Shown here one piece after another: positions 41,797-62,239 of a DNA stretch of 64,000 nucleotides. Each line of letters begins with the position of its first letter. The first letter of the stretch is position 1. The position numbers and the translations under genes were made by a program. Under the pieces are notes generated by a model that worked only from the letters and a program-made list of their open reading frames with translations, was not told the DNA's origin and did not search any database. Source of the stretch: Branchiostoma lanceolatum (Eukaryota > Chordata > Leptocardii > Amphioxiformes > Branchiostomatidae); NCBI RefSeq assembly GCF_035083965.1, contig NC_089731.1:1540001-1604000 (forward strand). The letters are read 5' to 3'.

Positions 41797-44700
41797 ATGT
41801 GGTTCTCCGTGCTTCTTGTGTCCGCGTGCTGCGCTTGTGCGACTGGACAGATCGTCGCGGCCCCAAACGGAACGACGCAGAGCCAACAGTCGCTGAAAGG
41901 TGCGTACCTCGCTGAATATTTTCGCCAAGAAGGTTATGCTTTTGGAAGCGTGTGTCTCTCTCTCTCTCTCTCTCTCTCTCTCTCTCTCTCTCTCTGTGTG
42001 TGTGTGTGTGTGTGTGTGTGTGTGTGTGTGTGTGTGTGTGTATGTGTATGTGTATGGTAACTCCAGAATGCTTGGGTGGATCGTCTTCATATTTGGTATA
42101 TGGTTAGGTCTTATTTCATATTTTGATCCGGCCGTAAGCACAGAGGAAATGTCAGAACCGTCCTAGCTAGGTTATAGGCTGTATTGTCACATGGGGATAA
42201 CATTCTGTGATCGGGGAGGGGTGTGTGCATGGTATTACATGCGAGGTTTGTTAAGTGCCTTTATGTCCGCTACGTTCGTTGCATAGTAAAGACTAATGGA
42301 TCGATTGACTGGTTAATTGATCATTGAATTGATTGATTGAAAAGAACAGTCAACCTTGTATATACAGTCATCCCAGGGGACTCAAGGGACTGAGGAAAGA
42401 TGGTTGCTGATGACAGGGCAGGGTAAACTTTGTAGAAATACATAATGGGCAGGACTGTTGTACTGTTGCTTGTGATCATGACTGGTGCGGTTGGCTGCAC
42501 CTGGTTTGACTGAATTGTGTTCTTTTTTACAGGAAGGTTCTTTCGAATCGTGACGTTTGAGGTAAGAATCTCTTCTTGCTACTTCAAATTCTCTACACAT
42601 ATGTAACCAGTTTTCCAGAGGGAGGGAAGGTAATAGCCAAAATGGGGGTCAATGATTGGCCAGGCTGTTCCAAAAGGTATCGACACCCAATTAGGACGTT
42701 GGAAACTGCAACCTTGCCCTTGAAGTTTGCAGTCAAACCGTAACATTTTGTGGGAAAGGATACCAGATAACGAAAATAGAGCTATATACCTACCAAATCA
42801 AAGTATTTTTGCAAATAATTTTTCTTTGAAATATTGCTGCTGCATATCTGTACCTGTACATCACTATATGTTGTATGTTGTAGCAATTGTATATTGTTTT
42901 ACCATAAATATGTAATGATACATATTGATAGAATTAGGACTCAAATGAATGTGTATTCTGTTAAATTGTATATGACCCTTTCCTCTTCCCTCATGACCTT
43001 AATGAAAAGCTGCCTGCGTGCCGATTTGAGCATATCATGAATAAACAAAGGTTCAAACAAACAAACAAACAAATACCTTAAACCGCGTAACACACCAGTT
43101 TTGTACAAGCTGCGAAAAACCATGCAGACTGATGGCAAAAGGTTTGATCCACTCACAAAGGGAAATACCTCTAATTTTGTCGATGGGTAAATCGAAAGTT
43201 TAAACTTTAATGGGAAATGTTTTGATACTTTTACTAGGAAGAGCCTTTCGTCATGAAGTCGACCGTTAACAACGTGACGTCATGGCGCGGATTCTGCGTG
43301 GACTTCCTGCAGAAGCTGGCAATGAAGCTGCAGTTCACCTACGAACTGCTAGAGGCGCATGACGGGCATGAAGGGACGTATCACGAGGGCGAGGGGTGGA
43401 CCGGGGCAGTGGGGGATATCGTTCACGGGGTAAGTATAGATATATCATTTCTCAATCGCCGTTCTAACAGGGAGTTCCGAAATACTTCCAAAAATTCATA
43501 TTTATGTGCTCAAGTCGTAGTTTTCATCGCACATTTTCCACTCTTTCTTCATAAAAGTGTAGCAGTGGGGTTCTATTAAGCACTTCCAACTGACCAGTCT
43601 AACTGGTCTAGACCTTTTAGCCTAGTGGTTAAGGCGTGCGGCCTGTGGACTGGCGAGCCCGTGTTCGATCCCCGGGAGCCACGAGATTGTTCCACTCGCC
43701 TCTTTTGTTACACTTTTGTAGAATTATTTTGATACATATTGACCGAAAGAATACCTTAATCTTTACAATGAACTAGCATATCAATATTACTCTTAGTTTT
43801 GTATTAGACGTTAACGTTATTATTACTACATGTACTTTGCTATCCCAATTACCCTTGTATGGCATTATGTGCATTTATCCCCCTGGGGAATGAACATGCA
43901 ATAAAGATCACGTTAGTATCTGTTCTCATAAGAAAGACCCTCTGTTTATTTTGTTTTCCACAGAGGGCCGACATTATTGTAGCGCCTCTGACCATTACGT
44001 CATACCGAGAGGACGTCATCGACTTCACCAAGCCTTACATGGAGTACGGCATCGGTATGCTAATGAAGGTGCCTGATGCGCACGCGCAGCATGACTACTG
44101 GGCCTTCCTGAAACCCTTCGAACTGGAGGTAGGTTGAAATGAAAAAAAAAAAAGAATTCATCCAAAAACGAGTTTTGTACTGTGTATGCTGCACATACTG
44201 ACAGTAGTAAAACTCCTGTAGCGTGTTTTGTGGTCACGTGACTGTGACGTCACACAACGCCCACCATATCGGTGGATTGAGCTTGTGTTCCTGAGACTCA
44301 GTTGCCTCTACCTCAGGTTTTCAGCTTTTCTGCCTCTCTATATTTTTTAGCACTCGAAAAAAACTCAATACCCCGTTTTCGTTTTTAAAGACTGGTCGCC
44401 ATCTTGGATCTATCGAACCCACCAATATGGCGGTAGGGATATCGATGTTAACGTTGTCATGCCCTTGTCCCAGGTGTGGATGACCGTGATTGGCTGTCTT
44501 CTGGGCGTGGCCGTTCTCATGTTCCTGCTCGCTGCAATGCGCAGGTCGTTCACCAGGGGCGCTCTTAGCGACGACGGCGTGAACTTGGGGACGACCGTGT
44601 GGCTGTCGGTCGGATGGATAACCGGAGGTAAGGCGCGGGTCATTCTAACTGACGAAGGCTATAATCTAGCGTTGGAGCACAATTTTATTTCCCTCTACGG

Positions 44701-62000: not shown

Positions 62001-62239
62001 GACTTCGACGGTTGATGAGTCGAAAATTTGGGCAAGTCCAAATTTTTGTGTCGGCAATTTGCAGTTTAACTTTAATCTACATGTCTAATATTTGTTTGAT
62101 TTTTATGCTACTCCAGAGTGTGAAGAAGAAGAAGGTGACCCCCGCCACCACAGAGACTCAGGAAGAAATGATCCGGAGAATCGTGAGGGAGTGTCTGAAG
62201 GAGACCAAGCTGGAGGAGTGCAACCTGGAGGACGGCTAA
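53043..62239 (+). CDS. Ionotropic glutamate receptor lacking the N-terminal domain (iGluR-E)
   Basis: Ten exons: 53043-53124, 57637-57665, 58127-58318, 58802-58966, 59365-59518, 59876-60100, 60447-60589, 61048-61166, 61617-61827 and 62117-62239. They encode 480 residues. Exons 2-9 have exactly the same lengths and phases as in iGluR-D. The signal peptide is MCLYVLFASLCWGFSAGQ. S1 has ALTITSHRED with carboxylate-binding Arg116; the usual Pro of PLTIT is Ala. M1, the GTTVWLSVGWITG pore loop, NTYTANLAAS in M3, YIFIHDGP (Asp323), GLPHGSPY and M4 match iGluR-D. The tail is KKKK-rich, then acidic. Exon 1 was chosen because its splice phase fits exon 2. Other candidate signal-peptide exons lie in the 4.5-kb intron 1. 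It is a tandem paralogue of iGluR-D with the same direction and likely the same role. Everything after exon 1 is very secure. Confidence 0.88.
53257..53935 (+). pseudogene. Series of extra signal-peptide exon copies in iGluR-E intron 1
   Basis: Three further signal-peptide-like starts follow the chosen exon 1. They are MWRSVLLPSVCCAFSAAQ at 53272 (donor AG|GTACGT, exon end 53348), MCLSVLLVSVCWSVSAA at 53640 (donor TG|GTACGT, exon end 53746) and MADIWLVVIFMSVCGVF near 53863 with no good donor. A fragment with GACAAGGGAGACTACCTC at about 53440-53475 may be a fifth. The second and third end in phase 2, which does not fit exon 2 (phase 1), so they are probably decayed copies unless another exon intervenes. 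Confidence 0.7.
54010..57410. repeat. Diverged segmental duplications inside iGluR-E intron 1
   Basis: Two pairs of direct repeats occur about 1.2 kb apart. 55838-56228 matches 57025-57410 (GTCACCAAGGTCGCCACACT, ACGACAAAAATTAC, TCGTGGA, CTTCARTTGTATTTCAYGGT). 54010-54190 matches 55260-55440 more weakly (AACTGTTGTTATGACAA-type, then GTTTTCTTTTAC-type). They suggest successive tandem duplication of 1.2-kb blocks in this intron. Open frames here are short and unsupported. Confidence 0.65.
57815..57962. repeat. ACTC tetranucleotide microsatellite
   Basis: CACTGACT and CACTCACT repeats over about 145 bases in iGluR-E intron 2. Confidence 0.95.
59640..59830. repeat. G/A-rich low-complexity tract in iGluR-E intron 5
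   Basis: GAGAGAGAG, a G run, GACAGACAGACA, GTGACTGAGTGA repeats and AAAGA words fill the intron just upstream of exon 6. It matches the position of the GA tract in iGluR-D. Confidence 0.8.

Follow-up and report, generated by a model that had tools for sequence, protein, structure and literature searches.

Tandem iGluR genes of the lancelet Branchiostoma lanceolatum that appear to lack the amino-terminal domain and have a shortened pore loop

Can an ionotropic glutamate receptor (iGluR) subunit dispense with its amino-terminal domain (ATD), which is thought to guide receptor assembly, and still be maintained as a ligand-gated channel? This question is raised by two gene models in a 64,000-nucleotide stretch of the Branchiostoma lanceolatum genome (assembly GCF_035083965.1, contig NC_089731.1, positions 1,540,001 to 1,604,000 of the forward strand), referred to here as the window and numbered from its first letter. 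Gene 1 (41797–50215) and gene 2 (53043–62239) lie head to tail on the plus strand. With a probability of about 0.55, we consider them two intact subunit genes, kept by selection, of a long, early-branching iGluR lineage that lost its ATD. This lineage probably belongs on the AKDF side, nearest to delta receptors, and likely combines a non-glutamate ligand with an altered ion filter.

Gene architecture and the amino-terminal domain

Each gene comprises ten exons and encodes a protein of 484 (gene 1) or 480 (gene 2) amino acids; 349 of 481 aligned positions (73%) carry the same residue in both proteins. The initial annotation had described a tandem pair of this size with equally long exons 2–9, and both observations were reproduced: the first ATG lies at 41797, the last stop codon ends at 62239, and exons 2–9 measure 29, 192, 165, 154, 225, 143, 119, and 211 nt in either gene model. 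All 18 introns are of the GT-AG type with compatible splice phases, and neither a stop codon nor a frameshift interrupts either gene. The Pfam families Lig_chan-Glu_bd, Lig_chan, and SBP_bac_3 are present in both proteins, which also share the S1-M1-P-M3-S2-M4 layout with Lig_chan domains that characterizes the iGluR superfamily.

The amino-terminal LIVBP-like domain of full-form animal iGluRs was found in neither gene. A Pfam scan of both proteins (E up to 0.001) returned no ATD family. The ATD measures 412 residues in GluD2 and 387 in GluA2, so the first intron of gene 1 (633 bp, including a CT/GT repeat) is too short to hold one. The first intron of gene 2 spans 4512 bp; no Pfam ATD family was detected in 20 of its 21 listed plus-strand open reading frames (ORFs) of at least 45 amino acids, a 52-residue ORF at 53222 being left out. 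An ATD profile built from two sequences, GluD2 and GluA2, was run on the 2834 six-frame ORFs of the window and gave three weak matches in total, none better than E = 1.3 (28450–28626, minus strand; the others are E = 2.5 at 56912–57199 and E = 7.3 at 55835–55909). A matching profile of the ligand-binding domain (LBD) and the transmembrane domain (TMD) recovered 13 of the 14 copies of exons 3–9 at E < 0.1 and the remaining one at E = 1.5. This control is imperfect, because ATDs are poorly conserved, more poorly than the LBD-TMD core. The six-frame profile and the Pfam ORF scans led us to reject a concealed ATD, whether within intron 1 or at another place in the window. The ATD-less architecture thus looks real rather than the product of an annotation gap, as the initial annotation had argued; the 633-bp intron, the gene 2 intron scan, and the in-frame joining described below all bear this out for the predicted genes.

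According to the initial annotation, the signal peptide leads directly into S1. Indeed, no ATD was detected between them, but a conserved 29-nt microexon lies there. In both genes exon 1 ends in phase 1, whereas the S1 exon (exon 3) starts in phase 0, and direct joining of the two at the modelled sites was rejected for this reason. The mismatch led to the search that revealed the bridging microexon (42533–42561 in gene 1, phase 1 to 0; 57637–57665 in gene 2). The two copies match each other (blastn E = 4e-5), whereas their 60-bp flanks are just 33% and 32% identical. The encoded peptides, RFFRIVTFE in gene 1 and QFFQVVTFE in gene 2, align with the first LBD strand of GluD2 (RVVTVLE). Exon 1 and the microexon join in frame in both genes, and the exon numbers used in the initial annotation are consistent with the microexon counted as exon 2. 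A loss of the ATD exons would have left the reading frame intact if these had formed a phase 1-to-1 block.

Signal peptides were assessed visually and by the best 19-residue hydropathy mean, which is 1.89 for gene 1 and 1.21 for gene 2. In gene 1, exon 1 (41797–41899) holds the start codon, the predicted signal peptide, and a short linker; in gene 2, exon 1 (53043–53124) holds the start codon and the predicted signal peptide, and both exons end in a phase 1 donor. The latter is the first of three tandem signal-peptide-like exon copies on the plus strand at the 5′ side of gene 2. The second (53272–53348) matches exon 1 of gene 1 at 82.5% over 40 nt, and the third lies at 53640–53746. Only the first copy has the phase 1 donor that fits exon 2; the other two end in phase 2, the second being out of frame with exon 2, and both were rejected as alternative starts.

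Beyond the microexon, the first part of S1 is encoded by exon 3 (43238–43429 in gene 1 and 58127–58318 in gene 2), which was also recognized by the LBD-TMD profile. Exons 4–7 are taken up below with the pore and the ligand pocket. Exon 8 (48616–48734; 61048–61166) continues S2, exon 9 (49420–49630; 61617–61827) contains the end of S2 and M4, and exon 10 (50102–50215; 62117–62239) encodes the cytoplasmic tail, short in gene 1, and the stop codon. All exons are on the plus strand. Intron 6 of gene 1 is mostly filled by a minisatellite (45448–47769) with ∼39 copies of a 60-bp unit.

When the two gene regions were compared by blastn, the matches consisted of the exons and the microexon, and the best other match covered 28 bp (E = 0.006). 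Because so little matches beyond the exons, the tandem duplication is not recent. Across the 413 codons of exons 2–9, dS is 0.44 and dN 0.145, giving a dN/dS of 0.33, with values for single exons from 0.03 (exon 8) to 0.63 (exon 7). Given this ratio and the absence of stop codons, we rejected the possibility that the genes are pseudogenes.

Pore loop, gate, and ligand pocket

The initial annotation was wrong in describing the pore loop as complete. In an alignment with six reference receptors (GluD1, GluD2, GluK2, GluA2, GluN1, and GluN2A), the loop of both genes falls two residues short (WLSVGWIT--G-DIAVPGG versus WFSLGAFMRQG-CDISPRS). The distance from the tryptophan of the pore to the first M3 residue that is arginine or lysine is 20 residues in either gene, 22 in GluD1, GluD2, GluK2, and GluA2, and 23 in GluN1 and GluN2A, so that all six references have two or three more pore-loop residues than the pair. 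In GluA2 numbering, the alignment leaves positions 586 (the Q/R/N site) and 587 missing in both genes; HMMER places the gap at the same position against GluD1 and splits it against GluD2. The net loss of two residues from the predicted proteins is firm, its exact position less so. The Q/R/N site helps to set calcium permeability and polyamine block, as described in PMC6307864.

The loss lies at or close to the junction of exons 5 and 6. Exon 5 (44474–44627; 59365–59518) encodes M1, the M1–M2 loop, and the first half of the pore loop, and exon 6 (45072–45296; 59876–60100) the second half of the pore loop, M3, and the start of S2. In intron 5 of both genes, an exon of 3, 6, or 9 nt that would restore the filter was sought, and no convincing common candidate emerged. 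A 6-nt microexon was rejected: gene 1 has two AG-N6-GT candidates and gene 2 has three, all of them different and none coding QQ.

The two genes share, without a single difference, a 150-bp tract over M3 and the second half of the pore loop (45064–45213 in gene 1 and 59868–60017 in gene 2), whereas the remaining exons of the 2–9 set show 75–92% identity. To judge from this identity, the tract is a recent gene conversion. Consequently, the 3′ half of the pore counts as one observation rather than two, and dS in exon 6 is lowered. The two genes also agree in the WITG end of exon 5, which lies outside the converted tract.

In both genes, the gate motif SYTANLAAF has become TYTANLAAS, with seven of nine residues kept. 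The M1–M2 loop is short, 20 residues compared with 19 in GluD2, 23 in GluD1, and 24–31 in the other four references. Features of NMDA receptors were not found: loop 1 has 11 residues, in place of the long loop with paired cysteines (46 residues in GluN1 and 39 in GluN2A), and the site that would carry the asparagine of the Q/R/N position is missing.

In the ligand pocket, both genes retain E402, T480, R485, an aspartate at 705, Y732, and the C718/C773 pair. The equivalent of R485 is R123 in gene 1 and R116 in gene 2, encoded by exon 4 (43964–44128; 58802–58966), which forms the second part of S1; the equivalent of D705 is D330 or D323 in the S2 segment of exon 7 (48100–48242; 60447–60589). Other pocket positions have changed. 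Y450 is replaced by glutamate in both genes, G653 by serine or threonine, S654 by alanine, T655 by phenylalanine or valine, and L704 by histidine. Positions 653/654/655/704/705 thus read S/A/F/H/D in gene 1 and T/A/V/H/D in gene 2, compared with S653, A654, V655, W704, and D705 in delta receptors. At position 450, four of the references have tyrosine and the NMDA subunits phenylalanine and histidine; glutamate occurs in none. The S654A change is common to glutamate-binding GluK2 and is uninformative on glutamate.

Because T655 is lost and an acidic residue is gained at position 450, while R485, T480, and D705 are kept, the predicted ligand is an amino acid or amine, with glutamate less likely. 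Our guess is glycine, D-serine, GABA, or another amine. Glycine-type pockets have been described by rules that call for S653 with a non-polar residue at 655, and for phenylalanine at 732 (PMC6307864, PMC12226733). Invertebrate delta receptors are reported to favor GABA, even though their binding residues are nearly those of D-serine-binding GluD2 (PMC10861852).

Relationships, known receptors, and the remainder of the window

In a PDB search with gene 1, 377 distinct sequences matched. Among the best 60 of these 377, the 11 highest-ranking matches are delta receptors (252 to 242 bits), followed by kainate (230 bits and lower) and AMPA receptors (218.7 bits and lower). Delta receptors also ranked first in the PDB when the LBD alone was searched. 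Sequence identity to the six references is 27–34%, with 33–34% for GluD1 and GluD2.

A phylogeny of the kind that the initial annotation had proposed was run with the AMPA, kainate, delta, and NMDA classes; phi and epsilon were not included. The tree holds eight sequences, none of which comes from AKDF group II, from invertebrate delta receptors, or from the kainate-binding proteins. The pair joins delta in this tree with a support of 93/92 and on a long stem. Placing the pair in a clade with a single receptor is rejected by the approximately unbiased (AU) test for GluK2 (p = 0.0018), for GluA2 (p = 0.003), and for each of the two vertebrate delta receptors (p about 0.005). In a tree of the membrane part, the stem of the pair reaches 2.73, and the grouping of AMPA and kainate receptors is itself weakly supported. 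From these comparisons, it is safe to state that the pair represents a deep lineage outside AMPA and kainate receptors proper. Among classes with solved structures it appears closest to delta, but a placement beside delta is not firm.

The likeness to GluD1 and GluD2 shows in the PDB rankings, where delta receptors come first with the whole core and also with the LBD alone, in D705, in part of the S653/A654/V655 pocket, and in the weak grouping in the tree. The differences are a pore loop that is two residues shorter, H704 and E450 in place of tryptophan and tyrosine, an identity of only a third, and the architecture: the delta ATD is the cerebellin-binding domain, whereas no ATD was detected in the pair.

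iGluR relatives without an ATD are already known elsewhere. Insect tuning ionotropic receptors (IRs) are described as iGluR relatives that mostly lack the ATD and work with other subunits; they differ from the pair in that the identity of most of them to iGluRs is very low, above all in the LBD (PMC6472016), whereas the pair retains 27–34% identity and the R485 and D705 anchors. The epsilon receptors (B. lanceolatum GluE1, GluE7, and placozoan GluE1alphaB) are non-vertebrate iGluRs as well, several with glycine-type pockets. The LBD of placozoan GluE1alphaB is numbered from residue 15, so that almost nothing precedes it, as in the pair (PMC12226733). Epsilon receptors are, however, described as having an insertion between M1 and M2 (PMC6307864), in contrast to the 20-residue loop of the pair (19–31 residues in the six references), and the Q/R/N-site variants that we found described for them are substitutions and not a deletion.

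For lancelets, Ramos-Vicente et al. (2018) reported 24 iGluRs of B. lanceolatum with phi and epsilon groups and no phi protein with Q586 (PMC6307864). In that phi proteins have no glutamine at 586, they resemble the pair, in which positions 586 and 587 are missing by alignment. Altered binding residues were found in the same study chiefly in amphioxus phi proteins and cnidarian NMDA receptors, and the main text of that paper contains none of the terms ATD, amino terminal domain, and N-terminal domain (PMC6307864). A placozoan paper of 2025 mentions cephalochordate receptors of AKDF group II (PMC12226733). In the literature searched, mostly at the level of titles and abstracts and without supplements, we came across no lancelet iGluR described as ATD-less or filter-deleted, which is not proof of absence.

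Outside the two genes, an ORF at 19794–20327 encodes a zf-UBP zinc finger (E = 1.2e-19). ORFs of the DSBA-like thioredoxin family occur on both strands, at 35031–35402 (plus), 13264–13560 (minus), 9881–10207 (minus), and 17415–17819 (minus; below the curated cut-off); we take these to be possibly several genes or fragments of the glutathione S-transferase kappa type. An Rfam scan gave no matches at gathering thresholds.

Interpretation and alternatives

In the interpretation that we favor, an iGluR lineage lost the ATD, and a signal peptide and a 29-nt exon would be all that precede the ligand-binding clamshell. The subunits would reach the cell surface, and tetramers would be held together by LBD and membrane contacts, with partners that may be each other or ATD-bearing subunits. 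The clamshell may close on an amino acid or amine, more likely not glutamate, and thereby pull on the M3 gate, whose sequence is nearly normal. The shortened filter would then change ion selectivity, calcium permeability, and polyamine block, or it would leave the subunit non-conducting. Unusual assembly, as predicted in the initial annotation, is plausible but not demanded, since the ATD is also missing from most insect IRs, for which assembly with ATD-bearing co-receptors has been proposed (PMC6472016). A bolder version would see in the pair a separate chordate lineage without ATD and without the Q/R/N filter residues, kept by selection as a ligand-gated channel and thus a naturally minimal iGluR whose filter is shortened and whose ligand is not glutamate; we put this forward as a speculation with the odds against it.

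Several observations weigh against the favored interpretation. The predicted signal peptide of gene 2 is weakly hydrophobic, and the joining of exon 1 to exon 2 is a prediction from splice sites and phase. The stem of the pair in the eight-sequence tree, in which no invertebrate references are present, amounts to 1.57 changes per column. The AU test rejects neither a sister position to AMPA plus kainate receptors (p = 0.066) nor one outside all AKD receptors (p = 0.077), and trees of the LBD only and of the membrane part give no resolved placement. The pocket fits no published ligand rule cleanly: a phenylalanine of the type found at 655 in gene 1 was left unclassified in the 2018 study, T653, as in gene 2, is reported from glutamate-binding ctenophore receptors (PMC6307864), and Y732 is retained as in GluD2 instead of the F732 of the glycine rule. 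According to a study of delta receptors, binding residues alone do not fix selectivity (PMC10861852). Finally, exons 3 and 7 have a dN/dS of 0.54–0.63, a rather high value for a channel.

The strongest competitor, which we regard as a serious one although somewhat less probable than not, is that the pair are ordinary cephalochordate members of the phi class, the epsilon subfamily, or AKDF group II, some of them among the 24 known B. lanceolatum iGluRs, with the short form as a local variant. Branchiostoma has phi and epsilon genes, and the lack of Q586 in phi proteins would fit the missing site (PMC6307864); uncharacterised cephalochordate receptors have been put in AKDF group II (PMC12226733), and our tree leaves room for such a deeper position. 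The M1–M2 loop speaks against epsilon membership, and five Branchiostoma proteins described as unpredictable have Tyr653 (PMC6307864), whereas the pair has serine and threonine. These comparisons were made with published descriptions, not with phi or group II sequences. A second question is whether the subunits conduct at all. They could be ligand-binding or dominant-negative subunits, or genes en route to decay, with a damaged ion filter: both pore loops are two residues short, at the Q/R/N site by alignment, and the gate motif is altered at its two ends. Yet the genes are free of stop codons and frameshifts, their overall dN/dS is 0.33, and most of the gate motif is kept, which makes this alternative unlikely, at perhaps one chance in a few.

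Much less probable is an artefact of the gene models, in which ATD exons were missed, are too divergent, or occur in other transcripts only. ATDs are poorly conserved and our profile derives from two vertebrate sequences, and it is a point against the favored interpretation, too, that the weak matches at E = 2.5 and 7.3 fall inside the 4512-bp first intron of gene 2. The ORF of the E = 2.5 match was, however, among those scanned with Pfam that lack an ATD family, and the short, repeat-bearing first intron of gene 1 and the matching phases of exon 1 and microexon in both genes also speak against missed exons. We consider least probable of all, and very improbable, that the pair are relatives of the kainate-binding proteins of non-mammalian vertebrates, as an old chordate short form of the kainate receptor. 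Those proteins, members of the kainate class, are short iGluRs of similar size that lack the same domain. In the pair, by contrast, a clade with GluK2 is rejected, S/T653 and F/V655 stand in place of the G653 and T655 of GluK2, and two pore-loop residues of GluK2 are missing; kainate-binding proteins themselves were not in the tree. The relation that the initial annotation had considered is therefore not supported, and descent from the kainate class looks unlikely on these sequence grounds. Because the GluK2 clade is rejected and the two GluK2 pocket residues are not present, independent loss is the better reading, and the ATD was probably lost independently of the kainate-binding proteins.

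If the interpretation of the pair as an ATD-less, early-branching lineage holds, these genes would test how little an iGluR needs to assemble, to gate, and to select ions. They would also bear on how many times the ATD was lost in animals, as the tree speaks against a descent of the pair from the kainate class.

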